From assembly GCA_016787485.1 (NCBI GenBank), contig JAEUUL010000005.1, forward strand, positions 69,588 through 133,587: DNA of 64,000 nt, read 5' to 3'. Both the position numbers and the translations under genes were made by a program. The stretch's first letter is position 1, and every line of letters starts with the position of its first letter. Under the pieces are notes generated by a model, which was not told the DNA's origin, did no database searches, and worked only from the letters and a program-made list of their open reading frames with translations. This DNA is from Bacteroidota bacterium. Lineage in GTDB: Bacteria > Bacteroidota > Bacteroidia > NS11-12g > UBA955. Below are positions 2,929 to 41,710 of the stretch, piece by piece.

Positions 2929-2956
2929 AATAAAAGGCTGTTAATTTGAACAACTG

Positions 2957-4479: not shown

Positions 4480-4570
4480 GGGAGTCTGGGTTTTGGGTTA
4501 ATTATCGGGTTTGGGATTAAGCATTGCAGCCATGATTCCCTGCAGTCAATCCGTATTTTTTCTGATTATT

Positions 4571-6067: not shown

Positions 6068-6071
6068 AGGG

Positions 6072-6079
6072 CAAAGGTA
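6072..6079 (-). promoter_or_regulatory. Predicted -7 box of purH
   Basis: The minus strand reads TACCTTTG, a full match to the Bacteroidota -7 consensus TAnnTTTG, ending 4 bp before the purH GTG codon. A good -33 TTTG is not evident at the usual distance, so the call rests on the -7 box and its position. Confidence 0.5.
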
Positions 6080-6122
6080 GACCCGACCTGTATGTCCGAA
6101 GCCCCGCTGTGAGGAAAGGTTT

Positions 6123-6320
6123 TTACAATTTGTTCACAACGTTCACATTGTTGGCAATGGCAGTATTTCCCTTCACATGTCTTGGACTATAGGGACAATG
6201 CCGGCAACCGCTGCCGCAGCAGAAACCACGCTTGCGCAGATAGGATTCAGTCCATACCCGGAAACCGTGTTCCAGGTAAAAATCGGCTTCATCCGCTGTT
6301 TCTTTCTTTGGGTCTTCCAT
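6123..6320 (-). CDS. DUF5522 cysteine-rich small protein
   Basis: A 65-residue protein from the ATG at 6320; the longer frame adds eight residues before the conserved MEDPKKE start. The hallmark is the cluster GFCCGSGCRHCPY, preceded by DFYLEHGFRVWTESYLRKRG, which matches the DUF5522 family found mainly in Bacteroidota. Four cysteines and one histidine packed in eight residues suggest a metal site (zinc or Fe-S), but no function is established that I know of. It lies between secA and purH on the same strand, 79 bp after secA. Confidence 0.8.
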   Translation of the reverse strand: MEDPKKETADEADFYLEHGFRVWTESYLRKRGFCCGSGCRHCPYSPRHVKGNTAIANNVNVVNKL

Positions 6321-6399
6321 CGTGTGAAGCATTCTGCATAGCACGGATTAACGCATAACCAGCCGGTGGAATCCCCACGTCACTTCAGATTATCTGCAA

Positions 6400-9300: not shown

Positions 9301-9738
9301 CACGGCCAGTGTGCGGTCCAGATCGGTGGCACTCACTTCCAGGTAGGCGTTTTCGCTGAATCTGCGGGCAGCATCTTTAACCACGGCAAAGGCGTCAGGC
9401 AGAATTTCAGCCAATACTTCTTCCAGTTTTTTGTCTCTGGCCTTTTCCAGTTCATCCAACTGGTGGAAAATACCATCTCTGGCATCGGTTTCAGTTTCGG
9501 GGGTGGAATCCAGCCGTGCCCTGGCTTCGGTGATTTCCTCGTCTATCTGGGTGAGGTAGGCGTTTATGCGTTGTATCAGTTCCTGTGTTTGTCCGCGCAA
9601 TTCATCGTGCGACAGGGATTGCAGTTCAGCGAAGCGCTGGTTGATGGCATCCACAATGGGGGCCATCTCTTTCAGGTCCTTGTCGGCTTTGTTGCCGCCC
9701 AGTACCTTGCTTACACCAGCAATTATTTTAGCTATCAT
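6400..9738 (-). CDS. secA: Preprotein translocase ATPase SecA
   Basis: Motor of the general secretory pathway, driving unfolded preproteins through SecYEG. The 1,112-residue length is usual for Bacteroidota and longer than the ~900-residue E. coli protein. Visible elements: Walker A MATGEGKT at about 196-203, the DEAD-like box region [19 protein letters not shown], the preprotein cross-linking domain, motif [13 protein letters not shown] in the second nucleotide-binding domain, the [16 protein letters not shown] motif, and the C-terminal zinc/SecB-binding site [14 protein letters not shown]. It is preceded by a convincing promoter (9751-9780). All five T9SS cargo proteins and the other exported proteins of this window depend on Sec for inner-membrane passage. 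Confidence 0.98.
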
Positions 9739-9750
9739 AAATCAGGGTTG

Positions 9751-9780
9751 CGAAATTAGGCTTTCAATAGGCACGCCAAA
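9751..9780 (-). promoter_or_regulatory. Predicted secA promoter
   Basis: On the minus strand TTTG (9780-9777) is followed after 18 bp by TAATTTCG (9758-9751), close to the Bacteroidota -33/-7 pair TTTG and TAnnTTTG (one mismatch). The -7 box ends 12 bp before the secA ATG. Confidence 0.55.
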
Positions 9781-9929
9781 AGTGCAAAAACCGAAAAAAG
9801 CAGACATTTTGGCTGAAGTATGGGGATTTTAGGCATGTTTTGCCCGGGTATCGTCAGATCCGTTGTTTTTGATCCTGGATAGTTTTGTCCGGTGGCCTGA
9901 ATAATTTGGGTTATCAGGCATTCCGGATT

Positions 9930-11564
9930 TTATTTCTTCATCAACTTGCAATTGAAAATGCCAGACTCTGTCTTCAGCAGGGCTATGTATAGCCCTGCAG
10001 GCATGTCCTGCAGATGAATCTGGTTAACAGGATTAGCAGATTTCTTCAATATCTTGCCGCTGAAATCAGACAAAACATAGGCAGCAGGTTGACTAAAAGA
10101 CACGTAGTTTTCTGCAGGATTCGGATAAACCGTAATGCCGGGTTGGCCGGAAGTTTTATGAACCGCCAAATCCGGCAGCGTATAGGCATACAACTCCGAA
10201 CCTGTGGTGCCGTTTGTGGCTGCCAGCCATATTTTTGCGGCACCTGCAAAAATCCACGTGATTCCGGCACTGCAAGTGGCATCGCAAATCTGAGCCATCA
10301 TTTCTGTTCCTGAAATAGTGCCATTGGTTCGCCACAACTCTATGCCATTTACACCATCGTTTCCTGCAAAATAATAATACCCGTTGATGATGTATGGGTT
10401 TACAATAAATCCCGAAGCCGGTTTTGCATAGGCTTCTGAGTTTAACGAATTTACACCGGCTCCGCTGTTAACATACAAATCCTGCAGCATATGGGTACCT
10501 GTATCTGTTCCGTCAGTGGACCAGATTTCATTGCCATAGGCCGATGTGGTTGCGCTGAAAAGCAATCTGTTATTCAGTTCTCCCAGCAAAGACATCGCTG
10601 TTCCTGAGCTGCCGGTATTGATTTCGTGAACCATACGTGTGCCGGCCTGCGTTCCGTCGGTAAGCCACAGTTCGCGCCCGGCATTGCCGTCATCTGCAAC
10701 AAAGAACAACTTGCCGTTGGCTTTCATAAAATCAGAAGGATTGCTGCTGGCATTGGCACCCGTGTTGATATTCTTAAGCATTTCAGTAGTGCTGCCGTTG
10801 GTACGCCACAATTCTGTGCCACTGGCTATGGATGATGTCCCTCCGAAGTAAAGCCAGCCATTGTATTCATACCCGTTGGTAGATACACCATTGCCTCCGC
10901 CGGGGTTGATATCAGCCAGAAGGTGTGTGCCTGTGTCCGATCCGTCGGTAGACCACCATTCCATACCATATCCGGGAACCAGTGCCTGAAAAAACAACCG
11001 GTTTTTAAATACCACCATATTCTGCGGATAGCTGCCATTGTCATTGCCGGTAAGGTCTTTCACCAGTCCTGTGCCTGCATCAGTGCCGTCAGAGCTGCTC
11101 AGTTCCTGCCCGTTGGTCATGTCAAAAGTCTGAAAATACACTCTGCCCTTGTAAACAATAAACTGGGAACCAGACAGTCCGGATGCTGCGCCGGGAATAT
11201 GGTCCTTAACCATTTTTGTGCCAGGGGTGGTGCCGTCAGTTACCCAGAGTTCCTTGCCATTGGTACCGTCATTGGCCGGAAAATACAGTTTCCCGTTCAT
11301 TATTGCCGTTGTTGCATAAGCAGCACCAGACCCGGCTGGATTGATGTCGGCAAGCATTTTGGTGCCTGTTGCTGTTCCATCGGAAATCCATATTTCGCGA
11401 CCATGGGTGCCGTCATCAGCAAGGATAAATGTTTTATCCGCACCTATGGAGGCAATAATCATCGGGGTGGAGGAACCCGCACCTGCATAGATGTCTTTCA
11501 CAAGAGATTGTGAGGAAAGCGCAAATGTGGGAAGGGCGAAAACAAAGAGTAATGTTTTTTTCAC
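9930..11564 (-). CDS. ELWxxDGT-repeat T9SS cargo protein
   Basis: A 544-residue exported protein with a GTG start at 11564 and the signal peptide MKKTLLFVFALPTFALSSQS. The body is made of about eight ~50-residue repeats of the ELWxxDGT/GTxML type (EIWISDGTATGTKML, ELWVTDGT, ELWRTNGS, ELWLTDGTQAGT, EIWSTDGTDTGT, ELWRTNGT), usually taken to form a beta-propeller-like surface module. The last ~80 residues are a T9SS type-A sorting domain (ITVYPNPAENY ... LPAGLYIALL ... KLMKK). It is expected at the cell surface or in the medium. A ligand cannot be inferred. A GTAATTTGC string lies 14 bp before the start, similar to -7 boxes elsewhere in the window. Confidence 0.9.
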   Translation of the reverse strand: MKKTLLFVFALPTFALSSQSLVKDIYAGAGSSTPMIIASIGADKTFILADDGTHGREIWISDGTATGTKMLADINPAGSGAAYATTAIMNGKLYFPANDGTNGKELWVTDGTTPGTKMVKDHIPGAASGLSGSQFIVYKGRVYFQTFDMTNGQELSSSDGTDAGTGLVKDLTGNDNGSYPQNMVVFKNRLFFQALVPGYGMEWWSTDGSDTGTHLLADINPGGGNGVSTNGYEYNGWLYFGGTSSIASGTELWRTNGSTTEMLKNINTGANASSNPSDFMKANGKLFFVADDGNAGRELWLTDGTQAGTRMVHEINTGSSGTAMSLLGELNNRLLFSATTSAYGNEIWSTDGTDTGTHMLQDLYVNSGAGVNSLNSEAYAKPASGFIVNPYIINGYYYFAGNDGVNGIELWRTNGTISGTEMMAQICDATCSAGITWIFAGAAKIWLAATNGTTGSELYAYTLPDLAVHKTSGQPGITVYPNPAENYVSFSQPAAYVLSDFSGKILKKSANPVNQIHLQDMPAGLYIALLKTESGIFNCKLMKK

Positions 11565-11657
11565 AGTAATAAAGGTGCAAATTACAGTGCAATAAACTGA
11601 AACAAAATTATCAGACAGAATTATGACATCCTGCTGTTTGAGAGTAAGGTCAATTAT

Positions 11658-12134
11658 CTATTGAACCACTTTGTTTGCGCAACTGCTGCTGGCAAATGCA
11701 TCGGGCTTGGCCTTGAACTGAAAGCCCATGCCCAGGATATACCCCATGGCTTCTTTCAGCGCCACATTGCTCATAAAGTGCGGGTCCTGGTTGATGTCCG
11801 CATGCACTTCCATGGGAATGTCGTACCGTTCGAGCATGGGACAGAGTTGGTAAGCTATTTCGATGCTGCGGCTCACTTCGTCCAGCATGCGTTGTTTCAG
11901 TCCTCCCTTGTACGAAAGTACTTCTTTTCTAACCAGTAGAAATCCACCCCGTTTTTCCCGCAGAAAAACAATGGCTGTGGCAAATTCAACAAGCGCCGCG
12001 TGCCATTGGCTGTCGGTACCGATACAAATTTTAATCCGGTTTCCTTCTGCAAGTTCCCGCAGAATGATGGTTTCAGTTTCGGAAATAATATCCGAAATGG
12101 GTTCTCCGTTGAGTCTTCTCCACTGGTTGTTCAT
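11658..12134 (-). CDS. RNase H-like YkuK family protein (DUF458)
   Basis: A 158-residue cytoplasmic protein matching the YkuK/DUF458 family, which has an RNase H-like fold. The characteristic start of the fold is IKICIGTDSQWH, with the acidic residue in GTDS and a later acidic position (MEVHADINQDP). The C-terminus GMGFQFKAKPDAFASSSCANKVVQ is also typical (AFASSxxADKxV). Length is normal. The catalytic activity of the family is not well established. A TACATTTG promoter box lies just before its ATG, and it is divergent from the TonB-dependent receptor at 12250. Confidence 0.88.
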   Translation of the reverse strand: MNNQWRRLNGEPISDIISETETIILRELAEGNRIKICIGTDSQWHAALVEFATAIVFLREKRGGFLLVRKEVLSYKGGLKQRMLDEVSRSIEIAYQLCPMLERYDIPMEVHADINQDPHFMSNVALKEAMGYILGMGFQFKAKPDAFASSSCANKVVQ

Positions 12135-12142
12135 AGGCTATA

Positions 12143-12150
12143 CAAATGTA
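12143..12150 (-). promoter_or_regulatory. Predicted -7 box of the YkuK-family gene
   Basis: The minus strand reads TACATTTG, a perfect TAnnTTTG match, 8 bp before the ATG at 12134. Nearby TTTG strings are at non-ideal spacing (15 bp), so the -33 element is uncertain. Confidence 0.5.
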
Positions 12151-12249
12151 TCTTTCCAGTATAACCAAAAAATAACCAACCGTATTTTTCATGGAATGAT
12201 TTGAACAAGAAATGAACATTTCTTTTTTTCAGATGTTTCTTTGCATCAG

Positions 12250-14649
12250 ATGAGAATTATAGGATTTTGTTTTTCAATCATTTTTTGCATTTCACTTCAG
12301 GCACAAGATATTGTGATACGGGGTGTGGTGCGGGATGCCGGTACAAACAAGGGAATCTCAGGTGCAACTGTGAAAATTTTAAAAGGGAGCAGTACCGTCA
12401 GCGATTCTGCAGGGGCTTTTTTACTGAGCCTTGGTGAGCCCGGCTTTTTTATTTTATCTGCGGAGGCTGCTGGCTATCAATTGGGCTATTCTCCCGAAAT
12501 GCTGTTCACTTTTGATAAATCACCTCTGGTGCAGATCAATCTGGAACCAGTTGCTTCTTCCATAGGGCAGGCCAATGTGGTGCGCAGCGGACTGCAGAAC
12601 CGCAAAGCGGAAAGTCCGGTTAGTGCCCAGCAACTCAGTATCAGGGAAATAGAACGCAATCCCGGTGGTAACCGCGATATCAGTAAAATTGTGCAGTCAC
12701 TTCCCGGTGTTATCAGCATACCCACTTTTCGGAACGACATCATCATACGCGGAGGTTCGCCGGGTGAAAACAAATTCTATCTGGACGGAATAGAAATTCC
12801 AGTGTTAAATCATTTTCAAACCCAGGGCAGCACGGGTGGGCCGGTGGGTATTTTAAACGTCAATTTCATCAAGGAAGTCAATTTTTATACGGGTGCTTTC
12901 CCCCTGAATCTGGCCAATGGAATGAGTGCGGTTCTGGATTTCAGACAGATGGAAGGCAATCTTGAAAAACCCAAATTCCGGTTTACCCTGGGCAGTTCCG
13001 ACCTGGGGTTTACAGCGGATGGTCCTCTGGGGAAAAAGAAGAAAACCACCTACATTGTTTCTGCCCGTCAAAGCTATTTGCAGGGTTTGTTTACCCTTCT
13101 GAAACTGCCTTTTCTTCCCAATTTTATAGATTATCAGGCCAAGGTAAAAACACGGCTGAATGACAAGGAGGAATTGAATTTTATCATGCTGGGTGCCGTG
13201 GATTATTTCAGACTGAATGAGAAAGTAAATGACGGGGTGACCGACAGCCTTACCCTTAAAAACAACAAGTACATTCTGGGTTACCTGCCTGATTTCAGCC
13301 AGTGGAATTATACAGTGGGTGGGTCATACACGTATTTCGGAAGGAGCAAACATCAGGTATTCCTTTCCCGCAATATGCTCAGTAACCGCACCGTGAAGTA
13401 TCAGGACAATGATGAATCAAATCCTGCTGGTAAAATACTGGATTATAAAAGCACAGAGGAAGAGAACAAACTGCGCTATGAAAACTCAAGACGCATGGGT
13501 CAGTGGACTTCCCTGAACGGGGGAGGATTGGAATTTGCCCAGTACGGTGTAAAAACGTTCAACCGCATAAGTACCCCCGGCGGTCCGCTTACGGTGGATT
13601 TCAGCAGCAGTCTGAATGTGTTTAAATACAGCCTGTTCAGTCGCTGGAGCCGCGCACTCAGCAATGGAATTCTTCTTGCAGGCGGATTGCGTTTGGATGG
13701 CACCGGGTACAATAAATCCATGCAAAATCCATTGAATCAGCCTTCTCTCTCCGTTTCGGCGTCCCTGCCTTTAGCCAGAAACCTGTTTTTCAGTGCCAAT
13801 GCAGGGCAGTTTCATCAGTTGCCTGCATACACACTGCTCGGTTACCGCGCCAACGACGGAACGCTGGCAAATCAGGCTGTGGCCAAATACCTGCGCAACC
13901 GGATGGCTGCTGCCGGCTTCCAATACAATTATGGAACAGAAACCAAAATCACAGCCGAAGGTTTTTACAAACGGTATGCAAACTATCCGGTAACCACAAG
14001 GGATAGTCTGAGTCTGGGTAATCTGGGTGCAGATTTTGCAGTGGTAGGTAACGAGCCGGTAATGAGCAATGGCACCGGTGAGGCGTACGGGGCAGAATTC
14101 CTGGTTCAAAGGCGCAGCCGCACCGGCCTGTATGGGATATTGAGCTATACCCTGGCATGGAGCAGGTTTGCCGATAAAAACGGGAAAATGTTGCCCAGTG
14201 CCTGGGACAGCCGTCACACACTCAGCTTAACAGGGGGGATCAAGCTGAAACGCAACTGGGAAGTGGGGGCCAAATGGAGATTTGTTACCGGCAGGCCTTA
14301 TACACCGGTAGATACGGTTCGCAGCCTGCTCAAACAGAACTGGGACGTTACCAATCAGGCACTGCTCAACTACAACCGGCTGAACAGCGGCAGATTGGGC
14401 AGTTTCAACCAATTCGACATACGCATAGATAAAGTATGGTATTTCCGCCGCAGTTCCCTGGATCTGTATCTGGATATACAGAATGTATTCAACTACCAGT
14501 TTGTGGGTCCGAACACGCTGATAGCGGCACAAAACCCAAACGGGACTCTGATAACCGATCCGGGCAATCCCGGTAGTTACAGGGCAGATTATCTACCCAA
14601 TACTTCAGGTACCATTCTGCCCACCATCGGTATTATTCTGGACTTCTGA
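12250..14649 (+). CDS. TonB-dependent receptor with carboxypeptidase-regulatory N-domain
   Basis: An outer-membrane receptor of 799 residues from the ATG at 12250; the open frame begins three codons earlier at TTG. After a signal peptide (MRIIGFCFSIIFCISLQAQ) comes a CarboxypepD_reg-like domain (~20-100: IRGVVRDAGTNKGISGATVKI). Next is a plug domain (~110-220) with the typical LPGV, DIIIRGGSPGENKFYLDGIEIP and NFYTGAFP strings, then a ~22-strand-type barrel ending in LDF with a terminal aromatic residue. Receptors of this type import siderophores, cobalamin, or oligomers together with SusD. No SusD-like gene is adjacent, so the substrate is unknown. A bidirectional terminator follows at 14656. 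Confidence 0.94.
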   Translation: MRIIGFCFSIIFCISLQAQDIVIRGVVRDAGTNKGISGATVKILKGSSTVSDSAGAFLLSLGEPGFFILSAEAAGYQLGYSPEMLFTFDKSPLVQINLEPVASSIGQANVVRSGLQNRKAESPVSAQQLSIREIERNPGGNRDISKIVQSLPGVISIPTFRNDIIIRGGSPGENKFYLDGIEIPVLNHFQTQGSTGGPVGILNVNFIKEVNFYTGAFPLNLANGMSAVLDFRQMEGNLEKPKFRFTLGSSDLGFTADGPLGKKKKTTYIVSARQSYLQGLFTLLKLPFLPNFIDYQAKVKTRLNDKEELNFIMLGAVDYFRLNEKVNDGVTDSLTLKNNKYILGYLPDFSQWNYTVGGSYTYFGRSKHQVFLSRNMLSNRTVKYQDNDESNPAGKILDYKSTEEENKLRYENSRRMGQWTSLNGGGLEFAQYGVKTFNRISTPGGPLTVDFSSSLNVFKYSLFSRWSRALSNGILLAGGLRLDGTGYNKSMQNPLNQPSLSVSASLPLARNLFFSANAGQFHQLPAYTLLGYRANDGTLANQAVAKYLRNRMAAAGFQYNYGTETKITAEGFYKRYANYPVTTRDSLSLGNLGADFAVVGNEPVMSNGTGEAYGAEFLVQRRSRTGLYGILSYTLAWSRFADKNGKMLPSAWDSRHTLSLTGGIKLKRNWEVGAKWRFVTGRPYTPVDTVRSLLKQNWDVTNQALLNYNRLNSGRLGSFNQFDIRIDKVWYFRRSSLDLYLDIQNVFNYQFVGPNTLIAAQNPNGTLITDPGNPGSYRADYLPNTSGTILPTIGIILDF

Positions 14650-30493: not shown

Positions 30494-30817
30494 TTAGTAA
30501 ATCGTTTGCTTCTTCAACGCATTGATTAAGACTAATAGATTCGCGTACTGATTGTCTACACCCTGTATGTACTGTGGGAGCAACTTTTCATCAATGGGCA
30601 CAGTTTTGATGGCCTCATGCTGCTTCTGTGAATATTCTACATCGGTAGTTCTTACAAACAAATCATAGAATTTTTGATGTGTGATGCCGGAGTCTGTAAA
30701 AGCAGGCTTAGTGCCATTGTTTGATGATTTTAAGTAATCTGAATATAAAGAACGTATTTCAAATACCAACTGCATATTGCGTTCATATTTGACGATCAGG
30801 TCTTCTCTCAGTGTCAT
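30494..30817 (-). CDS. Hypothetical protein in the defence island
   Basis: A 107-residue protein that I do not recognise. It has no signal peptide and no membrane helix; the sequence is mostly helical with charged ends (MTLREDLIVKYERNMQLVFEIRSLY ... LLVLINALKKQTIY). It begins 20 bp after the AAA ATPase stop on the same strand, and that ATPase begins 22 bp after hsdM, so the three form one probable operon. The tight linkage suggests a partner or regulator of the AAA protein. It is the leftmost gene of the island, next to smpB. Confidence 0.6.
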   Translation of the reverse strand: MTLREDLIVKYERNMQLVFEIRSLYSDYLKSSNNGTKPAFTDSGITHQKFYDLFVRTTDVEYSQKQHEAIKTVPIDEKLLPQYIQGVDNQYANLLVLINALKKQTIY

Positions 30818-30837
30818 GAGCAGTTTATAATAAAGAA

Positions 30838-32238
30838 CTACATTTTCATTTGAAGATGAACCGGGATGTCGCCTTCTTCAATGGTGGTGAGTATCTCTTC
30901 AGAAATATCAGGGATGTGAATGATTCTGTTGGCCTGATTGCTCACGGTTGACTCAAATATATTTCTGGCCAGTCTGCCATTTCCAAAAGTTTCATTCTTT
31001 GTCTCACATAAAACCCTGAAAATACTTAATGCCTTGGTCGTTGCATCTTCAGTGAGAATGAATCCGCCTTCAGTTGCAAAATGGATAAAAATAAGCTGCA
31101 ACTGCTCCGGAGTATAATCTTCAAAATAAAAATATTTATTAAAGCGTGAACGCAAACCCGGATTGGAGGCGAGGAATCCCTGCATTTTATCGGTATAGCC
31201 TGCCACAATCACAATCAGATCATCCCGGTTGTCTTCCATGAGTTTGAGCAGAGTGTCAATTGCTTCTGACCCAAAATCACTGCCTTCGCCTGTTAAGGTG
31301 TACGCTTCATCTATGAATAGTACTCCACCCAGCGCTTTGTTTACCACCTCATGCACTTTCAATGCAGTCTGGCCCACATAGCCTGCCACCAGACCGGCAC
31401 GGTCTGTTTCTACAAACTGGCCCTTGCTGAGTAAATTCATGGACTTATATATTTCTGCCAGCAAACGTGCAACAGTGGTTTTACCTGTGCCGGGATTTCC
31501 ATAAAAAACCAGGTGTCTGGAAACTGGTGTATTTGTCAGGCCGCGTTCTTGCCGCATCTTTTGGACTTTCAGTAAATTCACCATTTCCTGTACATCCTTT
31601 TTTACATTTTCCAGACCTATTAAAATGTTCAATTCCGCTAATAAATCCTCCAGTGATTTAGAACTTTCTGTAACGACACCCTGGATGTCCGATTTCTCTT
31701 GCTCCGTGGTGGATTGAGATATTACAGCAGGATAAAACAGCGATTTCAAATTTTCCATTGCTGCAATCTCCTCCTTGGTTATGCGGCCATCAGCGGAGAC
31801 AAAATCAGTGGCGAACTTGTAATACATGGTGCGGCAAATGTCCCCATAATTGGTGCCGTGCATTTGATCATAATCATCTAGACAGACAATTGCAAATGGG
31901 AGGGAGAAATCATCATACATGCCATTGCTGTCTTGATAGTGCTTTTTATAAAAGTCCAGTATTTGCTGTTTGGTTAAATTTTCTATATGGTACGAAGGAT
32001 CAAAAATGGCCTGAATATCACGCATATAATCCAATTCATCCATTGAAAAATCCTTGTCAACATTGGCAATATGCATACTTATCACTACGAAGCCCAATGC
32101 GATGATGTTTCCTGCATCTATCTCTTCATCCAGATTATACTTCCTTTTATTCAGCACTTCTTCAATCGGTGCAATCAATTGAGGATAACATTCCTGTATG
32201 TATCGAACCATGGGTGCTGATTCGTCGTGGTACCGCAT
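30838..32238 (-). CDS. CbbX/SpoVK-type AAA ATPase with TerB-like N-terminus
   Basis: A 466-residue protein. Residues ~190-460 form a CbxX/CfqX-class AAA module: NILIGLENVKKDVQEMV, Walker A GNPGTGKT at about 247-254, GYVGQTALK, Walker B GGVLFIDEAYTL at about 304-315, sensor-1 region VIVAGYTDKM, and arginine-finger region NPGLRSRFNKYFYF. The N-terminal ~175 residues contain two acidic EF-like helices (ANVDKDFSMDELDYM and SADGRITKEEIAAM), a pattern seen in TerB-like domains. The class remodels other proteins, as CbbX does Rubisco. Here it lies 22 bp after hsdM, so I infer a role tied to the restriction system or a separate defence function. It is not a standard Hsd component. Confidence 0.82.
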   Translation of the reverse strand: MRYHDESAPMVRYIQECYPQLIAPIEEVLNKRKYNLDEEIDAGNIIALGFVVISMHIANVDKDFSMDELDYMRDIQAIFDPSYHIENLTKQQILDFYKKHYQDSNGMYDDFSLPFAIVCLDDYDQMHGTNYGDICRTMYYKFATDFVSADGRITKEEIAAMENLKSLFYPAVISQSTTEQEKSDIQGVVTESSKSLEDLLAELNILIGLENVKKDVQEMVNLLKVQKMRQERGLTNTPVSRHLVFYGNPGTGKTTVARLLAEIYKSMNLLSKGQFVETDRAGLVAGYVGQTALKVHEVVNKALGGVLFIDEAYTLTGEGSDFGSEAIDTLLKLMEDNRDDLIVIVAGYTDKMQGFLASNPGLRSRFNKYFYFEDYTPEQLQLIFIHFATEGGFILTEDATTKALSIFRVLCETKNETFGNGRLARNIFESTVSNQANRIIHIPDISEEILTTIEEGDIPVHLQMKM

Positions 32239-32260: not shown

Positions 32261-33748
32261 TTATTTCAACCCCTCCATCACAGCCCTAAAACTCTCCAGT
32301 CCTGCTTCCAGATTCTCAATGATTTCGGCGGCAATGACATCCGGGTCAGGGAGGTTGTCCAAATCAGCCAGGGAGTTGTCTTTGAGCCAGGTGATGTCCA
32401 GTGAGGTTTTGTCGCGCGTGGTGATCTCTTCATAGCTGTATTTTCTCCAGCGGCCTTCAGGATTGGATTCTGACCAGATTTCTTTGCGTTTGTTGCGGTT
32501 GGCCGGGTTGTAGCAATTGATAAAATCGCGGAGGTCCTCCAGTTTTAATGGATTCTTTTTGAGGGTATGATGCACATTGGTGCGGTAATCATAAATCCAT
32601 ACCTCTTTGGTCCAGGGTTTTTTGCTGGCAGGTTTTCCATCAAAAAACAACACATTGGCTTTTACTCCCTGGGCATAGAAAATACCGGTGGGCAGGCGCA
32701 GGATGGTGTGCAGGTCGGTGGTTTCCAGCAGCTTTTTCCTTACGGTTTCACCGGCGCCGCCTTCAAACAGCACATTGTCAGGCAGCACCACTGCCGCCTG
32801 ACCTGTGGTTTTCAGCATGGAGCAGATGTGCTGCACAAAATTCAGTTGTTTGTTGCTGGTGGTGGCCCAGAAATCCTGCCGGTTATAGGTGAGTTCATCC
32901 TTCTCCTGTTCCCCTTCCTCGTTGGTAAAGGTCTGTGAACTCTTTTTCCCAAAAGGCGGATTGGCCAACACATAATCGTAAGTGGCGGGTGATGCTGCAA
33001 TCAGCGCATCGGCAGGAGAAATGAAATTGTCGCTTTCTATATCGCCTATGTTGTGCAGAAACAAATTCATTAAGGCCATGCGGCGGGTGCTGGCTACAAT
33101 TTCGTTGCCGAAAAATGTATTCAGTTTCAGAAATTCATTTTGCGCTTTGTCCAGTTTGTTGTGTTCCACCAAATAATCATAGGCTGCCAGAAAAAAGCCA
33201 CCCGTTCCGCAGGCGGGGTCTGCAATGGTGCGCATGGGTTGGGGCTGCACACATTCTACCATGGCACGTATCAGTGGCCGAGGGGTAAAATATTGTCCGG
33301 CCCCGCTTTTTACGTCCTGGGCGTTTTGTTCAAGTAATCTTTCATAAATATCCCCTTTCACGTCTGCACCCATCACCAGCCATTGTTCGCTGTCTATCAT
33401 GTCTATGATCTTAGCCAGCATGGCAGGGTCCTGTATTTTGTTTTGGCTCTTTGTAAATATCTGCCCCAGAATGCCTTTGGCGGTACTCAGCTCCCGCAAC
33501 AGGGTGGCGTAGTGCAGTTCCAGTTCAGCCCCTTTTTTGTTGGTGAGGCTTTCCCAATTGTATGCGGCGGGTATATGCAATTTGCGGTTGTGGGGCGGTT
33601 TGCTGTATTCATCTGCCATTTTTAAAAATAGCAGGTAGGTAAGTTGTTCCAGATAATCTCCGTAACCCACACCCACATCACGCAGGGGGTTGCAAAAGGA
33701 CCAAACCTTGGAGACTATAGAGGAGGTGTTGAATGATGTTGAACTCAT
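32261..33748 (-). CDS. hsdM: Type I restriction-modification methylase subunit HsdM
   Basis: A 495-residue N6-adenine DNA methylase subunit. The N-terminal helical HsdM_N domain is followed by the SAM site ADPACGTGGFFLAAYDYL (motif I, ~177-184) and the catalytic NPPFGKK at ~263-269 (motif IV, NPPF class), with YFTPRPLIRAMVE before motif I as usual. It needs HsdS for DNA specificity and HsdR for cleavage; both are encoded further upstream on the same strand. Unusually, a plus-strand three-gene cassette separates it from hsdS, so it needs its own promoter; a TAAGTTTG box lies 10 bp before the start. GC content is high compared with the cassette. Confidence 0.96.
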   Translation of the reverse strand: MSSTSFNTSSIVSKVWSFCNPLRDVGVGYGDYLEQLTYLLFLKMADEYSKPPHNRKLHIPAAYNWESLTNKKGAELELHYATLLRELSTAKGILGQIFTKSQNKIQDPAMLAKIIDMIDSEQWLVMGADVKGDIYERLLEQNAQDVKSGAGQYFTPRPLIRAMVECVQPQPMRTIADPACGTGGFFLAAYDYLVEHNKLDKAQNEFLKLNTFFGNEIVASTRRMALMNLFLHNIGDIESDNFISPADALIAASPATYDYVLANPPFGKKSSQTFTNEEGEQEKDELTYNRQDFWATTSNKQLNFVQHICSMLKTTGQAAVVLPDNVLFEGGAGETVRKKLLETTDLHTILRLPTGIFYAQGVKANVLFFDGKPASKKPWTKEVWIYDYRTNVHHTLKKNPLKLEDLRDFINCYNPANRNKRKEIWSESNPEGRWRKYSYEEITTRDKTSLDITWLKDNSLADLDNLPDPDVIAAEIIENLEAGLESFRAVMEGLK

Positions 33749-33766: not shown

Positions 33767-33816
33767 GCTTAAACGAAACAAATTCATGTAAAATGCACTG
33801 GATATGAATCATTTTG

Positions 33817-33824
33817 TATCTTCG
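33817..33824 (+). promoter_or_regulatory. Candidate -7 box of the TIGR04255-HEPN cassette
   Basis: TATCTTCG matches TAnnTTTG with one change and ends 15 bp before the ATG at 33840. The spacing is like other predicted promoters in this window; there is no obvious -33 TTTG. Confidence 0.35.
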
Positions 33825-33839
33825 CGACGTTTCACTCTT

Positions 33840-34571
33840 ATGGCACAAAAGTATTCCAACCCCCCTCTGGTGGAAAGTCTTGTTGAATTTCGTTTTGGAC
33901 TGGAAGATCCAAACGACCCTACATTGCCTGGGCTTTTGTATTCAGAAATTAAAGAACAGTTTCCAAATCGAGCAAACCGGAATATTGCCTTTCCGAGTCC
34001 CAATGGAGATGGTAAAGAAATAGAATTAAAATTGACGCCATTAGCGCAATTCAGGAATACAGACGATTCAATGTTAGTTCAAGTAGGTGGTAATTTATTA
34101 ACTATTAATTGTATCAATAAGTATGTCGGTTGGGATCTGTTCTCTTCGACAATTAAGAATACATATAAACAATATTGTCAGTTAGCCGCACCTTCAAAAG
34201 TTATAAGAATTGGCTTCCGTTGTATAAATAAATTCGATTTTCCTAAAAGTGAAGTCAACCTAAATGACTATTTTGAATTTTTACCAACAAGACCTTCTAT
34301 TTTAACTTCACCCTATAATCACTTTGGAATACATATTGAGTGCCCTGAAAACGATAACCGTGACTTACTCATTATGAAAAATAATAGTGTTGTTTCAAAT
34401 ATTCCAGACAACATAGGCGTAATGCTTGATATGGAATATGCAACTCAGAATGGCATTGTATTAGATACCAATGAAGAAGTTATAATTGACTGGATTGAAA
34501 ATGCACATACGAAGTTGAAGGATGCGTTTGAGAGTTCAATAACTAATATTTTACGTAAAACTTTTGATTGA
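33840..34571 (+). CDS. TIGR04255 family protein
   Basis: A 243-residue protein from the ATG at 33840; the frame extends upstream, but MAQKYSNPPLVESLVEFRF is the typical family start (pattern YxNPPLxEaxxEfrF). The family is sporadically distributed among bacteria and its function is not known. No enzymatic motif is evident. The sequence is AT-rich relative to the flanking hsdM. It leads a three-gene plus-strand cassette in which the next gene starts 5 bp after its stop. The cassette lies between hsdM and hsdS and points against both, a position typical of defence-island cargo. Confidence 0.82.
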   Translation: MAQKYSNPPLVESLVEFRFGLEDPNDPTLPGLLYSEIKEQFPNRANRNIAFPSPNGDGKEIELKLTPLAQFRNTDDSMLVQVGGNLLTINCINKYVGWDLFSSTIKNTYKQYCQLAAPSKVIRIGFRCINKFDFPKSEVNLNDYFEFLPTRPSILTSPYNHFGIHIECPENDNRDLLIMKNNSVVSNIPDNIGVMLDMEYATQNGIVLDTNEEVIIDWIENAHTKLKDAFESSITNILRKTFD

Positions 34572-34576
34572 CTATT

Positions 34577-35092
34577 ATGAATTCTGAAAGTCTTACAGGT
34601 ATTCTAAACATAATTACTATGTTTGCTCCATCACAAGGTAATCTGCCGTCAAATAGTATGGATCTTTCAGTTACCCGCACATCTGCGTATCAGCAAGTGC
34701 AACTCAGTACTAATAGGAGTCAGACATTTCGAAATGATTTATACTATGAAAGTTCAATTTACAATTATACTCATAAGCTAGTTTCAAAAATAAATGAGTT
34801 ATATGTCATAGTTAATTCAGATGAAGTTAACAATTTGCTTTTTAGCAATTTGACAATTGCTGAAGCTTTATTGGATTTGAATCAAGAAATCATTAATGAG
34901 TTTGGGTTTAATGCTTCTCATCTAGAATTAATATGTGATTATGAAGTACCAGATTGGAAAAATATTTTTGTAACGATACATCATTTCGAAGACCCATTAT
35001 TAGCTGATGGAAAATTGAATGAATTGCTTCATAATTGGTCTGTTAAACAAACAAGAGAAGTCAGAAGTTTAGTTACATTGTCAATTTTATAA
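34577..35092 (+). CDS. Hypothetical protein, middle gene of the TIGR04255-HEPN cassette
   Basis: A 171-residue protein from the ATG at 34577 (the frame opens three codons earlier at a TTG). I do not recognise it. It has no signal peptide or membrane helix. The N-terminal ~60 residues are polar, serine/asparagine/threonine-rich and probably disordered (SQGNLPSNSMDLSVTRTSAYQQVQL). The C-terminal half looks like an alpha/beta domain (LTIAEALLDLNQEIINEF, HLELICDYEVPDWKNIFVTI). The order TIGR04255 protein, this protein, HEPN protein, with 5-bp and minus-1-bp junctions (TAATG), indicates one translation unit. Composition is AT-rich: the 60 bases from 34801 contain 16 G or C. Confidence 0.68.
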   Translation: MNSESLTGILNIITMFAPSQGNLPSNSMDLSVTRTSAYQQVQLSTNRSQTFRNDLYYESSIYNYTHKLVSKINELYVIVNSDEVNNLLFSNLTIAEALLDLNQEIINEFGFNASHLELICDYEVPDWKNIFVTIHHFEDPLLADGKLNELLHNWSVKQTREVRSLVTLSIL

Positions 35093-35466
35093 TGGCTAAA
35101 ATTGCATTTAACTGGCAAGATTATATTGATTTTGCTCAAGAGCTGCTAGAAAAAGACATTTCAGAAAAATCATTGCGGAGCTCAGTTAGCAGGGCTTATT
35201 ATGGTGCTTTTATTTGTTGCAGAAACAGATTAGGACTTTCGAACAGAAAAGATAACGAAATTCATAAAATCGTATGTGAAAGATTTAACTCTGATAATCC
35301 GACAAAAGAAGAAATGTCCATTTTTAATAGCCTGAAAGACTTACGAAGGTTCAGAAATACTGCAGACTATGAAAATTTTTGCGATTTTACACCACAACAA
35401 GTTGCCCTTATAGTTGATAAGTCAAAAAATGTAATTTCTTTACTAAATAGCATAGAATTAGATTAA
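35092..35466 (+). CDS. HEPN domain protein
   Basis: A 124-residue all-helical protein of the HEPN superfamily (PF05168-like). Recognisable strings are SVSRAYYGAFICCRNRLGL in helix two or three and SLKDLRRFRNTADYENF near the end. In toxic HEPN RNases the catalytic motif is R-x4-6-H; here the position reads RNTADY with no histidine, so RNase activity is doubtful. It overlaps the preceding stop by 1 bp (TAATG) and its own stop overlaps the convergent hsdS stop by 9 bp. As the last gene of the cassette it may be a toxin-like, regulatory or RNA-binding component; which one cannot be decided from sequence alone. Confidence 0.82.
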   Translation: MAKIAFNWQDYIDFAQELLEKDISEKSLRSSVSRAYYGAFICCRNRLGLSNRKDNEIHKIVCERFNSDNPTKEEMSIFNSLKDLRRFRNTADYENFCDFTPQQVALIVDKSKNVISLLNSIELD

Positions 35467-36612
35467 CCTCCCCTCAAACGCCCTTTTCAATATACTCTGC
35501 CTCAGCATTTCTGATTGTTGCAAGCCTTGGGTTATGGTTTCTTCCATTTTTTCGAGAACTGTGAATTTGTTCACTATTTCTAAAGCTATAATATCCTGTT
35601 CTTCTTTTGAACAAACCAAAATATTCAAATTTTTTATTGGGCCTAAAAATAAATTTGCTTGTGCTGTTGCTTTTTTGCTTTTTTCAATTTGACTTTGAAG
35701 AATAGGTGATTGAAACAAATACTCATAAAACTTGGATGAGTATTTAACCCAATCTAGTTTTATAAGCGCAACACTTCTGACCATTACAAATTTCATATGC
35801 TCTGGAACGTTGCAAACTCGACCAATTGTGCCAGAACAAGAAATAAGAATGTCCCCAGGTTCTGGATTACACCTTTTGACTATCCTCAAATATTCATCTT
35901 CAGGTACATAGTCTACATTATCAAGAGCTAAATAACCATTTTGAATATTTCTTGCAGATAGCAGTAGAAAACCGCTGGAAGTTCTCCTTGGAGTAATATG
36001 CTCTCCATCTGTGATTTTTGTAGCAATGTTCTCAAGTTTCACCCATTTCCACCCCTCCGGCAACTCCCCTTCCTTCAAATTATCATTGGTCAATTTCCCC
36101 TCAAACGCCGCTTTCAGCAAACTCTGACGGTACACTTTCAATTGCTCCTGTGCTTTCAGCAGTTGCCGCTTTCCGCTTTCCAGTTCGCTGAAGATTTCTT
36201 CTATTTTGGCTACGATTGCGGCTTGCTCGGGTAGGGGGGGAATGGGGATTTCTTCTTTTAGTAAAAACTGAAAATGTCGTGCATAGCCTTTGTCAGGTAG
36301 CTTTAGGCTTTTAAGAGCATAATAAAAATATTTATCATTAATATGTTTTTTGGGCTTCAGTACTTTTACGCCATCGGCACCAGCTATGAACTTGAAGGGT
36401 ATATGTTTAATGATTTTAGTATGATCACCAAAAATAATGTATGGAGGTTCTTCTTGAATTACAAGTGTCTCATCGTTGTAAAACCCTCCAATGTCTTCCT
36501 GACTTTGGTCTATTACAGGATATTTACCCAAACTTTTATAATCGCGCTGCTTAATTTTCTTATTTTTGAGTGATATAACTTGACAAATATCTTTAATTAT
36601 ATAGCGCTGCAT
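35458..36612 (-). CDS. hsdS: Type I restriction specificity subunit HsdS
   Basis: A 384-residue specificity subunit. The first target-recognition domain (~1-130) begins directly at the N-terminus. A central conserved helix follows (LPEQAAIVAKIEEIFSELESG ... LLKAAFEGKLT, ~130-175). The second recognition domain starts at LPEGWKWVKLENIA and runs to ~330, and the distal conserved helix ends in ILKRAFEGRLI. The two conserved helices set the spacing between the half-sites of a split DNA target. A 13-bp DNA direct repeat underlies the AFEG motif at both places (35470-35482 and 36097-36109). It converges with the HEPN gene, overlapping by 9 bp. Confidence 0.95.
   Translation of the reverse strand: MQRYIIKDICQVISLKNKKIKQRDYKSLGKYPVIDQSQEDIGGFYNDETLVIQEEPPYIIFGDHTKIIKHIPFKFIAGADGVKVLKPKKHINDKYFYYALKSLKLPDKGYARHFQFLLKEEIPIPPLPEQAAIVAKIEEIFSELESGKRQLLKAQEQLKVYRQSLLKAAFEGKLTNDNLKEGELPEGWKWVKLENIATKITDGEHITPRRTSSGFLLLSARNIQNGYLALDNVDYVPEDEYLRIVKRCNPEPGDILISCSGTIGRVCNVPEHMKFVMVRSVALIKLDWVKYSSKFYEYLFQSPILQSQIEKSKKATAQANLFLGPIKNLNILVCSKEEQDIIALEIVNKFTVLEKMEETITQGLQQSEMLRQSILKRAFEGRLI
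35470..36109. repeat. 13-bp direct repeat pair inside hsdS
   Basis: CCCCTCAAACGCC occurs identically at 35470-35482 and 36097-36109. The two copies encode the AFEG part of the distal and central conserved helices of HsdS. Such repeats are where recognition domains recombine in type I systems. Only one hsdS is present in the window. Confidence 0.6.
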
Positions 36613-36631: not shown

Positions 36632-37357
36632 TTATAGAGTTTCTATTATTTCCGGCATTTCATCCCAGGTCTTACCTTCAAGCACACGCCCTGCTTTCTT
36701 TTTATTTGTACCGCCCCATTGTTTGAAAAAGAAAGCCACATTAGATTGCACACATTGGTTTTTTATATCCGTTACCCATTCTTCTTTCATTGGTCGGGGC
36801 TTACGGCCACTTTCACCACCTACAATGACCCAATCGATTCCATCAAGGGTTAAGTTTTTCAAGGGCCCAATCAGAGGCTCTAGAGATAAGAATTTCACAC
36901 GGGCTTTGGTTTCACGCAACAACTTAATCCTGTTTTCAACTTTTGCATTTTCCACGGAAACTCCCATCCAGATATTGTGGGTCCATTCCAACAAGCCTTC
37001 ACTGTCATAGTATCTCAAAATATCTGCCCTTTTGGTTAATACCTGAAATACATGCTGAGGGTTGTCTTTCATAACCTTAAAGACTCTCTGAATAAATTCC
37101 ACAGGTACATCCTTGTGAAAAAGATCACTCATGGAATTGACGAATACCACTTTGGGTTTCTTCCAGGTATAGGGTGTCTGTAATTCATCTTCGTGCACAG
37201 TTAACTTAAAGTTGTTCTCGTACTTCTCTACACCCATTGCCTTCAATCGCCTTGACATAACCTCTGCGTAACAATGTTTGCAACCTGCAGAAATTTTATC
37301 ACACCCTGTTGTAGGGTTCCAGGTCATTTCGGTCCATTCTATGCTAGATTGTGCCAT
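36632..37357 (-). CDS. DUF5131 (phage Gp37/Gp68-like) three-Cys-motif protein
   Basis: A 241-residue protein of the Gp37/Gp68 (DUF5131) family. Its opening [28 protein letters not shown] holds three cysteines at about 19, 26 and 29 (Cx6Cx2C), followed by [47 protein letters not shown] and WVIVGGESG. The pattern resembles radical-SAM-like Fe-S proteins, but the activity is unknown. The gene starts 4 bp after the stop of the TcmP gene, its usual partner family, and ends 19 bp before hsdS. The pair sits inside the hsd operon, which suggests a defence or DNA-modifying role by association. Confidence 0.88.
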
Positions 37358-37361
37358 TTGA

Positions 37362-38480
37362 CTATACTATTTGAATATAACTTTTAGGTTCTCTTGTTTT
37401 AACATCATCCCACCTAATATAAAAAGATCCTTTTCTTGCGTCCTTTCCATCATTTAGGGTTACTTTCAATTTATTTCGATCTTGAAGGTCCTTGAGAATG
37501 ATATTTGTATGCTTGACAAGGTGTCTATTTAATATTGTAAATCGATGCACTTCAATATTAGTTCTTTTCTCCCTTAAAAAAACTTTTAGATTTTCCTCAA
37601 ATTTATCTAAAACAGGGCTACTGTCCACTGGATTGAACAAATCAATTTGACCTGCTGACTTCGGGCTCCATCCGCGTCCTTGTTCTTCATCTATATCCCA
37701 TTTAGCTTCTAGAAATTTTTCCAATCCATACAAATGATTTGCAAAAAAGAACATTGCAAAATATTGATTTCCTTCTCTTGTAATAATAAACGAATCTACA
37801 TGCTTGGTAATTAATCGATTAGAAAACCCTTGCTGGAGATTATTAATAAAATCAATTCCTGATTTACTTGATTTTAGTTCAATATCTTGCATTGCATCAT
37901 TCAAAAATATTTGTAAGCTATCAGGTGTTGCTTCTTTTTCAAATCGATACATAAACTGTGTAGGTAAAAATAGCAGAACTTCCGTAAAGCCGTCACTTAA
38001 CATTCTTTCAATATCCGTAATTTTAATGTCTTTATATCCATAAGGATCTATAAAAATAAATCTTCTTCTATTACCAGGTGTTTTGGAATCAAGTAAAGGT
38101 ATTTTAATTTCATTATAATCTACGTTTTTGCAAGTAAAGGAACCAAAACCATCTAATGAAATATTATTTTCAGATATATATTTCTGCAACTTGGCTATTT
38201 TATCTTTATTAAAATCATTGAATACACATTTGAAATTTATATCTCCTTGAAAATTTGAAGAGTACTTAAGATAGATGTCCCGAATTAAATTTAAAATAAT
38301 TACTGGACTTCCAGTTTTTCCATTCTCATATATTCCTTCACCACAAAATAAATCGTAAACTTCAACTTCCGATATAAATGGAGAATGTGCAAGAATACTA
38401 ATATATTTTTCCAAATACTTTCTTAGCAGTAGTACTTTAATTTCAGAATGTTCTTGTGGGTTTATTTGAGAGTCTTTCAT
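37362..38480 (-). CDS. tcmP: Three-Cys-motif partner protein TcmP
   Basis: A 372-residue protein from the ATG at 38480; a TTG three codons upstream is less likely. The family is named for its pairing with the three-Cys-motif DUF5131 protein, which follows 4 bp later. Features are [38 protein letters not shown] (like a methyltransferase SAM loop), [18 protein letters not shown], and [16 protein letters not shown], where DPYG corresponds to a DPP(Y/F)-like catalytic position. These suggest a class I SAM-dependent methyltransferase fold, with an unknown substrate. The C-terminal ~80 residues may be a winged helix. It is AT-rich (19 G or C in the 60 bases from 37981) and has tandem repeats upstream. 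Confidence 0.87.
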
Positions 38481-38486
38481 ATAAAT

Positions 38487-38538
38487 CAAATATTAGGTTA
38501 AAACCTTATAATTACCAAATATTAGTTTAAAGCCTAAT
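38487..38538 (-). repeat. Two tandem ~23-bp repeats upstream of tcmP
   Basis: CAAATATTAG occurs at 38487-38496 and 38516-38525, each followed by similar sequence (GTTAAAACCT and TTTAAAGCCT), with a 29-bp period. The repeats lie 6 bp upstream of the tcmP ATG. Read on the minus strand each ends in CTAATATTTG, close to a -7 box with one extra base. They could be an operator or a duplicated promoter. Confidence 0.45.
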
Positions 38539-38648: not shown

Positions 38649-41465
38649 TTATGCTGCCAACACTTCATTGAGTTCTTCCAGGATTCTTTCATAATCGTCG
38701 CGGAACAGCGAATAGAATTTACCCAGCCCGCCAGCAGCATTGAAGGGATTAAGGTCAAAATCTTCCTTGTCAATATGGAAACTGCCGGCCACGTAGTCTT
38801 TAACCATGCGCAGCCATTGCATTTGTTCTTCACTGAACCTGTTGTGCTGTCCGGCATTCTGTTTGAAAATCCATTGCTGAAAATTCCGGTCCACCGTGCT
38901 TTCATATCCTGCAAGCCATTCATCAATGCCAATGACCTTGCGGATGACGGACACCAGCAGAATGAGCTCCTGTTTGGGTTTTTCGCTTCGGGGCAACCGG
39001 TGAACCATTTTGCCTTCAGCTTCCTTGTCTTCCACCTCGGCGCAGGCATCCCACAGGGCAGACATTTTAAGTACCGGCTTTTCTGCTATAAGTAGGTCAT
39101 ACATTTCTTTAATCATTTTATACGTCAGATCCCTCCGGCGGTAGGCCTGTCCGTAAAAAATCTGAAGTGCGGTAATTTCATTTTTATGTTCTTCCATCCA
39201 GGCTTTAAAATCCTGAATCATGCCCATGGCTTTCCCGGTGTTATCCTTTTCCCAGCCCGCATTCAGTAGTGTGTCTGGGTTAATGTGGTCAATCACCTGA
39301 GCATGGGCTTTGCGCACATTCTCAATGTAATTATTCAGGTCTCCGGTAAATACGGCAGCGGCTGCGTCCTGCAGACGGGTTACCTGTTCATTGTATTTTT
39401 CATCTTTCAGCAGCGGGGCTTCACCGGCAAATTGCTGCTCCGTTTGCATGCGTATCTCCTCCAGCGTATCCGGGTCAAAGGCATTCAGCAGTTCTTTTAC
39501 CACCTGGGAGATGGATTTGCCGCCGGATTTTTCTTCAAAAACCGCTTTCTCCTTTTCTGTCACCTGCTTTTCCAGTCGCGCCAGCCGGCCTGCCAGTGAG
39601 GTAAACAATTCCTCATCCCTTGCGCCTACTGCTATTGCACCCAGCAGGTCTTTCAAAGGCACACCGGGCTTTTTCTCCAGTGGCCGGCTGTCGGTTTTCA
39701 AACTCTTGGTTACCCCAATGGCATCCACAATCACAAAATGGTCTTTGGTGAATTTTGCGGTGGGCGTCACTTTTTTCAGTGCTTCCAGATTTATGGTGCG
39801 GGTGCCACGGCCCTTCATCTGTTCGAAATAGTTGCGGCTTTTCACATCGCGCATGAACAGCAGGCATTCCAGGGGTTTTACATCCGTGCCGGTGGCAATC
39901 ATGTCCACTGTTACCGCTATTCTGGGCAGGTAATCATTTCTGAACTGCGCCAGGGTGCCTTTGGGGTCCTCAGTATTGTAGGTGATTTTTTTACAAAACC
40001 GGTTTTCTTCGCCAAATTCTTCTCGTACAATTTGAATGATGTCATCGGCATGAGAATCTGTTTTCGCAAAAATCAGAGTCTTGGGTACTTCAAAAACCCC
40101 CTGGTCATCAAAGCGGTCCGGGAACATTTCCGGCAAATGGTATTTAAATGTTTTGATGATTAAACGAATCTGATTCGGGTTTACTACTTCATCATCTAAT
40201 TGCTTGTTGGAGTATGTTTTGTCTTCATCCAGTTGTTCCCATCGTTTGCGCCGGGTCAGTTTTTCCCGGTGGTCTACATATTCCCCTTTCCAGATGACGC
40301 TGCCTTTTCTGGTGATTTCTGTTTCAATGGTATAAACATTGTATCCCACATTCACGCCGTCGGCCACCGCCTGTTCGTGGGTGTATTCACTTACTACATT
40401 CTGGTTGAAAAAACCAAAGGTTCTGTTATCCGGTGTGGCCGTTAAACCGATGAGAAAACTGTCGAAATAATCCAGCACCTGTTTCCACAGGTTGTAAATG
40501 CTGCGGTGGCACTCATCAATAATAACAAAGTCGAAAAATTCTGCAGGCAAAGTGGGATTGTATACAACGGGAACGGGTTCCCGCTTTTCCCACTTTACTT
40601 CACCCGGATTGGTTTCCTCCGCACTTTCTTCCATCTCTTCTCCTTTTAGGATCGAATAAAAACGCTGAATGGTGGAGATATACACCTGGCAATTGCCGGG
40701 CACGAAAGAAGATTTGAGCCGGGTCACGCCATACAATTCGGTAAATTTCCGGTTGTCGTCATTGGGCAGAAAAGCCATGAATTCCTGTTCGGCCTGTTCT
40801 CCCAAATTTTTAGTATCCACCAGAAACAATATCCGTTTGGCCTTGGCATATTTCAGCAGGCGGTAAATAAATGTGATGGCCGTAAATGTTTTACCGGAAC
40901 CTGTGGCCATTTGTATCAGGGCTTTGGGGCGATTTTCCCGGAAAGAATTTTCAAGTTTGGTGATGGCGTTAATCTGGCAATCCCGCAGGCCGGTAGTGTT
41001 TAATTCCGGCAAATCAAAAAACCTGCCGCGTAGTGTTTTGTCTTCTCTGATCCATTTGGCAAAAGTTTCAGGCCGGTGAAATGTAAACACGCTGCGGGAC
41101 CGGGGTTTGGGATCGCGGTAATCTGTAAAGCGGGAAATCTCCCCGGTGCTTTCGTAAACAAAGGGCAATGGATCGTTGTTCAGGTATTTAAGCTTTGCTT
41201 TGGCATATTCTGTAGATTGATTTTCTACTTCAGTTACCAAAGTAAATCCGGCATCTTTTTTCTTGGCTTCAATCAACCCAACAGGCTTTTTATCTACAAA
41301 TAATACATAATCCGCGGGACCAGCGTCGGTTAGATATTCTCTTACAGCTATGCCTTGTGCGGCATTCAGGTTGATTTGTGACTTGTCCTGAATAAGCCAG
41401 CCACAGTCCAGCAACTGCTTATCTATATGGTCACGGGCTATTTGTTCAGGATTCTGATTGGTCAT
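38649..41465 (-). CDS. hsdR: Type I restriction endonuclease subunit HsdR
   Basis: A 938-residue motor/nuclease subunit from the ATG at 41465; the frame adds 12 unlikely codons upstream. The N-terminal PD-(D/E)xK nuclease is visible as ADYVLFVDKKPVGLIEAKKK (Glu66 and Lys68). The SF2 helicase motor has Walker A MATGSGKT at about 186-193, IIDECHRSIYN (DECH box), LIGLTATPDN, VDMIATGTDVKPLECLLF and QMKGRGTRT. The C-terminus resembles the EcoEI-type R_C domain (AGGLGKFYSLFRDDYERILEELNEVL). It translocates DNA and cuts unmodified sites at random distances. It is the first gene of the hsd locus, at the right edge of the island. Confidence 0.96.
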   Translation of the reverse strand: MTNQNPEQIARDHIDKQLLDCGWLIQDKSQINLNAAQGIAVREYLTDAGPADYVLFVDKKPVGLIEAKKKDAGFTLVTEVENQSTEYAKAKLKYLNNDPLPFVYESTGEISRFTDYRDPKPRSRSVFTFHRPETFAKWIREDKTLRGRFFDLPELNTTGLRDCQINAITKLENSFRENRPKALIQMATGSGKTFTAITFIYRLLKYAKAKRILFLVDTKNLGEQAEQEFMAFLPNDDNRKFTELYGVTRLKSSFVPGNCQVYISTIQRFYSILKGEEMEESAEETNPGEVKWEKREPVPVVYNPTLPAEFFDFVIIDECHRSIYNLWKQVLDYFDSFLIGLTATPDNRTFGFFNQNVVSEYTHEQAVADGVNVGYNVYTIETEITRKGSVIWKGEYVDHREKLTRRKRWEQLDEDKTYSNKQLDDEVVNPNQIRLIIKTFKYHLPEMFPDRFDDQGVFEVPKTLIFAKTDSHADDIIQIVREEFGEENRFCKKITYNTEDPKGTLAQFRNDYLPRIAVTVDMIATGTDVKPLECLLFMRDVKSRNYFEQMKGRGTRTINLEALKKVTPTAKFTKDHFVIVDAIGVTKSLKTDSRPLEKKPGVPLKDLLGAIAVGARDEELFTSLAGRLARLEKQVTEKEKAVFEEKSGGKSISQVVKELLNAFDPDTLEEIRMQTEQQFAGEAPLLKDEKYNEQVTRLQDAAAAVFTGDLNNYIENVRKAHAQVIDHINPDTLLNAGWEKDNTGKAMGMIQDFKAWMEEHKNEITALQIFYGQAYRRRDLTYKMIKEMYDLLIAEKPVLKMSALWDACAEVEDKEAEGKMVHRLPRSEKPKQELILLVSVIRKVIGIDEWLAGYESTVDRNFQQWIFKQNAGQHNRFSEEQMQWLRMVKDYVAGSFHIDKEDFDLNPFNAAGGLGKFYSLFRDDYERILEELNEVLAA

Positions 41466-41710
41466 GCGAATACAGGCTAAATCAACAGGCCAACATTTCA
41501 AAAAAGATCATACGCTTTCAGGAATTCATTGCCATTAATCTGCACCTCTCAAATAAAGTAAACAAGCCACACATTTGCAACCACCAACCACCCTCAACTT
41601 TACCAAACCCCGTTTTGAATTTGTGAATGCGGAGCCTGGCCTCCGTTTCCTCCGTGATCTCTGCGGTTAGATGCCAGGTCCGGCGGTTTGAACAGGCCTT
41701 TTGCAGGGAC

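Follow-up and report, generated by a model that had tools for sequence, protein, structure and literature searches.

Does a gene packed tightly behind hsdM belong to the restriction enzyme, or is it cargo that is carried beside it? The question is raised by the 64,000-nucleotide stretch of Bacteroidota DNA analysed here (the window), in which an AAA ATPase gene and a small ORF follow the methyltransferase gene of a type I restriction-modification (RM) system. The original prediction proposed that the ATPase could control how the type I complex is assembled or released, or that the genes form a separate defence unit. The case therefore separates two readings of a common pattern, hsdM-adjacent cargo and enzyme part.

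Organisation of the locus

All three type I subunit genes are present in the window on the minus strand: hsdR for the restriction subunit (38649-41501, family profile matches), hsdS for the specificity subunit (35458-36612, family and PADLOC profile matches) and hsdM for the methyltransferase subunit (32261-33748, HsdM_N and N6_Mtase). The order on this strand is hsdR, TcmP (37362-38489), DUF5131 (36632-37357), hsdS and, after three plus-strand genes, hsdM, the 466-aa AAA ATPase (30838-32238, from the ORF list and profiles) and an ORF of 107 aa (30494-30817). The plus-strand gene beyond this ORF is, from its sequence, presumably smpB. The last three minus-strand genes are arranged head to tail, 22 and 20 bp apart, and both the ORFs and their spacing are exactly as originally described. 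Because the three opposite-strand genes (33804-35466) separate hsdM from hsdS, hsdM, the ATPase gene and the small ORF probably form a transcription unit of their own, as judged from gene order. GC3 is 0.435 in both the ATPase gene and the small ORF and 0.571 in hsdM; the other cargo genes have different values, DUF5131 (0.430) excepted.

The three plus-strand genes, which according to profiles encode a TIGR04255 protein, an unknown protein of 174 aa and a HEPN-like protein of 124 aa, split the hsd operon and are AT-rich (GC3 of 0.22-0.27 vs 0.51-0.57 for hsdR and hsdM). None of these proteins is encoded in the 36 hsdM loci described below. TcmP and DUF5131, between hsdR and hsdS, were matched by profiles as a PADLOC PDC-M30A/PDC-M30B pair, and locus L168 has the same pair in the same slot (DUF5131 82%, TcmP 43%). 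As partners of the ATPase they were ruled out, since they occupy a different slot and L168 has both without the ATPase. Within hsdS, a 31-nt direct repeat (84%; 35469-35499 and 36096-36126) probably reflects two similar conserved regions of that gene.

Domains of the ATPase

Residues 195-458 (30865-31656) hold the AAA core (Pfam PF00004, 2.7e-19) and AAA_lid_6 (PF17866, 1.3e-15), both over the cut-off. The P-loop GNPGTGKT and the Walker B motif LFIDEAY are intact, and the motif columns are invariant in the alignment; with core, lid and both Walker motifs, the protein falls into the CbbX/SpoVK-type AAA superfamily. The best PDB matches are CbbX (3zuh and 3syk) and EccA1 (9lur), with a phmmer E value of 4e-54 to 3zuh over residues 196-459. 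The NCBIfam models for SpoVK, EccA and CbbX (TIGR02881, TIGR03922 and TIGR02880) all match, with scores far under their equivalog cut-offs (282 vs 423, 233 vs 467 and 220 vs 459, respectively; for TIGR02880, 219.7 bits against the 459-bit cut-off). PADLOC gave generic AAA matches only. Judged by its sequence, the protein is a full-length AAA ATPase of the CbbX/SpoVK/EccA type with its lid, and the NCBIfam and PDB matches bear out the CbbX-type label given to it earlier. An identity as Rubisco activase was ruled out by the sub-cut-off scores and by the genome: the Rubisco large chain (PF00016) has no match in the host genome, which is 95.8% complete, and the same search was positive in 5 of 14 control genomes.

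The N-terminal region (residues 1-178; 31705-32238) had been described as TerB-like, with two acidic EF-like helices. Two related acidic EF-like halves are indeed present: residues 43-89 and 132-178 align without gaps over 47 columns, with an internal-duplication score that was reached by 24 of 1000 shuffles. Both halves contain D-x-x-[FI]-[ST]-x-x-E. The acidic motif D..[IF][ST]..E is the TerB signature, and the N-terminus carries it in duplicated helical halves. On the other hand, Pfam TerB (PF05099) stays under its gathering cut-off of 24.4, with 15.8 bits (E 0.018) for the whole protein and 18.7 bits (E 0.0022) for the first 181 residues alone. The structure model has seven helices at low confidence (pLDDT 63), and Foldseek with this model returned no significant structural match. 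A TerB-like identity is plausible but weak; given the weak profile match, the low-confidence model and the lack of a significant structural match, we use the label "TerB-like" and not TerB. Among 66 distinct single-AAA relatives, 45 have D..[ILVFMS][ST]..E in the 130 residues preceding the AAA domain, compared to 2.5% in shuffled sequence, and at this level of motif matching the combination of a TerB-like motif with a CbbX-type AAA domain is a common architecture.

The position behind hsdM in related systems

We collected 36 loci with hsdM relatives of 52-90% identity, from 20 genomes of the class, 5 plasmids and 11 viral contigs. A tblastn search with a threshold of 1e-3 detected neither the ATPase nor the small protein in any of them; in 31 of the 36, the sequence continues for 500 bp or more beyond hsdM. 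The closest relative (L161, 90%) lacks both proteins in the 2.4 kb covered after hsdM. ORFs were picked mechanically, longest first, which masked hsdM in L171 and L176; the tblastn search covers both loci.

Gene order could be parsed in 34 of the 36 loci, and in 16 of these hsdM is followed at no more than 60 bp by another same-strand gene. Family scans covered ten of the 16 genes (those of L166, L170, L181, L201, L202 and L203 were left out), and five match nuclease families: Mrr in L164, L172 and L207 (with PADLOC PDC-S02 in L164 and L172), an NgoFVII/PLD nuclease in L174 and a YhcG nuclease in L178. The others are a DUF4268 protein in L197, an NT5C nucleotidase in L200 and an alcohol dehydrogenase-like ADH_N protein in L184, the latter two not defence-like, while the genes of L165 and L183 have no family match. 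The order R, S, M is kept in many loci; the R-S gap, the S-M gap and the genes after M differ. In some loci R or S is missing from the stretch, and the order in L178 is R, M, S. The content adjoining the hsd genes thus varies between relatives, as is characteristic of accessory cargo embedded in RM systems, and we read the place after hsdM as a variable cargo slot.

Variation was also seen elsewhere in these loci. Two S-M gaps were scanned (L170, 6206-8358; L177, 5933-7926), and both contain a Schlafen AlbA_2 protein, with a DUF4062 protein too in L170; the S-M gaps of L164, L169, L172 and L175 hold gene pairs of similar size, as judged by length only. In the viral contigs L200, L201 and L202, a 148-aa gene lies 17 bp after hsdM, and the L200 copy is the NT5C match.

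Since related RM systems hold other genes in this place, often nucleases, the ATPase pair has the look of exchangeable defence cargo rather than of an enzyme component. The proposal that the ATPase acts on the type I complex, by assembling it, taking it apart or releasing it, draws on its gene adjoining hsdM, probably within one transcript, and on the fact that CbbX-type rings remodel partner complexes. Against it, close hsdM relatives up to 90% identical do without the ATPase. The reverse search agrees: in 94 loci around AAA relatives, no relative of the Hsd or cargo proteins of the window was found with probes that would miss RM systems unlike this one. We regard a remodelling role as very improbable. 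Tight packing behind hsdM is not enough to mark a protein as a subunit of the restriction enzyme or as its chaperone, because sister loci with close hsdM genes have different neighbours.

The Hsd complex may instead keep the module silent until a phage anti-restriction protein disables Hsd and sets it free. There is a precedent: according to the available text of PMC3874165 and PMC12707154, the type IC locus ecoprrI contains prrC, whose product is sequestered in the enzyme complex and freed on T4 infection. Accessory genes occupy the same place here. Nevertheless, no nuclease or other effector motif was found in the ATPase or the small protein with Pfam, NCBIfam and PADLOC, and the cargo varies while hsdM stays alike, which argues against a specific docking surface. 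We consider such a guard arrangement quite unlikely. The other half of the original prediction, a separate defence unit, still stands, as several relatives have nuclease or defence-type genes in this slot, with the qualification that the ATPase family itself is mostly found in non-defence settings.

Relatives and origin of the ATPase

In a tree of the AAA domain (99 of 132 rows, with Oscillospiraceae thinned to one in four), the ATPase is sister to a plasmid protein of Methylibium petroleiphilum with support of 99/85 and does not group with its counterparts from the same family or phylum. Since it groups with a betaproteobacterial plasmid protein instead, it was probably acquired horizontally. 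The Methylibium protein lacks the exact TerB-like motif and reads DRFIGPAE at this point. Its gene has neither an hsd relative within 10 kb nor an obvious small partner following it, and annotations within 7 kb include Sir2, an HNH endonuclease and a phosphorothioated-DNA restriction endonuclease. Among 295 genomes of the class, the N-terminus was detected in the host genome alone, apart from two marginal matches (E 0.007 and 0.009). Among the matches listed for 395 genomes of the phylum and 108 of the order, no non-self relative covers the whole N-terminus.

Most TerB-AAA relatives sit in ordinary chromosomal surroundings, and in the same-family relatives L210 and L211 the AAA gene lies beside an ordinary gene. 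By these contexts, the family is used in several settings and is not a defence family as such. Taken as a whole, the family is largely found away from RM or defence genes, an outcome that the original prediction named as refuting it; this is judged from the 94 loci, where RM systems of other types would escape the probes.

These contexts also favour a plainer explanation, namely that chance placed a stress or housekeeping TerB-AAA gene next to hsdM, that it has no part in defence and that the small ORF is unrelated. The sister gene in Methylibium is solitary, and no convincing homologue of the small ORF was found. What speaks against chance is the tight head-to-tail packing with hsdM, the matching composition of the ATPase gene and the small ORF (GC3 as given above) and the nuclease-type genes that relatives have in this place, and we hold this explanation to be unlikely.

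Some further relatives were recorded. L209, from the window's own family (44%; 1172-12753), has a TerB-like AAA protein near an nSTAND1 NTPase, a GIY-YIG protein and look-alike short ORFs. The host genome itself encodes another protein, of 881 aa, in which CbbX-type AAA domains occur twice (contig C36; L123, 7908-10553), and among the Bacteroidota matches to the ATPase there are many frames of about 1300 aa that have three such domains. Scans of viral contigs with the ATPase and the small protein gave nothing useful, while a scan with the ATPase-family alignment gave 8 loci, the best of which (L213, 39%) matches residues 173-458 only.

The small protein

The 107-aa ORF looks coding by its codon usage. 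Its frame scores 0.065 on the codon usage of the island, narrowly above the peak of 0.062 from 500 base shuffles, and it beats its five other frames. The single-sequence model of the protein is all-helical (pLDDT 74), and a structure search with it gave no significant match. No match to Pfam, NCBIfam or PADLOC was obtained at the thresholds used, except for one chance-level Pfam hit. In the 395 phylum genomes no convincing relative was found outside its own genome; plasmid matches had E values of 4 or worse, and no convincing relative was found in viral contigs. Weak Bacteroidota matches (E 0.005-0.01) include L129, a 144-aa ORF that is likely a chance match since it sits beside an RND efflux operon. 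On these searches, the protein is an orphan without a convincing homologue, and the conservation once expected of it largely fails to appear. A HEPN toxin was ruled out on the lack of a family match and of R-x4-6-H by eye. The ATPase and small ORF are known as a pair from one locus only, so a conserved pairing would be hypothetical.

Proposed mechanism

We give about an even chance to the reading that the ATPase and the 107-aa protein form an accessory module of two genes that occupies a variable cargo slot behind hsdM and probably arrived by horizontal transfer. Co-transcription, a defence role, ligand sensing and cooperation of the two proteins are what we infer for such a module. The TerB-like N-terminus would sense a small ligand, a metal ion or a change of state during phage infection, and the CbbX-type ring would then spend ATP to pull on or unfold a partner. 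CbbX frees Rubisco by pulling its C-terminus, and it is by analogy with this that the ring is proposed to act on a protein. The 107-aa helical protein is the obvious candidate for this partner and may serve as effector, adaptor or substrate. The module would share the transcription unit of hsdM yet act beside the Hsd enzyme and not in its assembly.

A bolder version, which we regard as doubtful, is that this is a new two-gene anti-phage module travelling in type I RM operons, in which a TerB-like sensor fused to a CbbX-type ring ATPase frees or unfolds the 107-aa helical protein, an effector belonging to a novel family, perhaps once restriction has been blocked. Should the pair prove to protect against phage, a testable model would become available for rings of the CbbX/SpoVK type with TerB-like sensors, many of which lack an assigned role.

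Comparison with known systems

The literature searched, as far as its text was available, contains no description of the combination seen here. A classical Ter operon was ruled out, as the genome has no TerD match. According to the parts available, TerB-like parts have been proposed as ligand sensors of Ter systems (PMC7824862), and TerB is present in the defence systems Shango and Bunzi (PMC10952713, PMC10250203), the former being a tested anti-phage system of which TerB is a component (PMC10250203). Shango, as described there, resembles the window in combining a TerB-like protein with an ATPase. It differs in having three genes including a DEAD/DEAH helicase, whereas the TerB-like and AAA parts are a single protein in the window, and no helicase other than hsdR was found in the locus. 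The PrrC system, in the text available, likewise has an accessory gene within a type I RM operon. Its product acts as an anticodon nuclease, in contrast to the present module, in which no nuclease motif was found and which is placed after hsdM.

With CbbX (the red-type Rubisco activase), SpoVK and EccA, the ATPase shares the AAA core and AAA_lid_6. It differs from them by its additional TerB-like N-terminus and by a host genome without a Rubisco large-chain match. The genes of the TerB-like, CbbX-type AAA proteins of Oscillospiraceae are chromosomal, for example next to what we take from its sequence to be a tRNA methylthiotransferase-like protein, and their N-termini are only 14-18% identical to that of the window ATPase. 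Nevertheless, these proteins have the same domain order and a similar length, carry D..[IV][ST]..E before the AAA domain, and have residues F111, P114, D124, D150 and E157 in common with the ATPase of the window.
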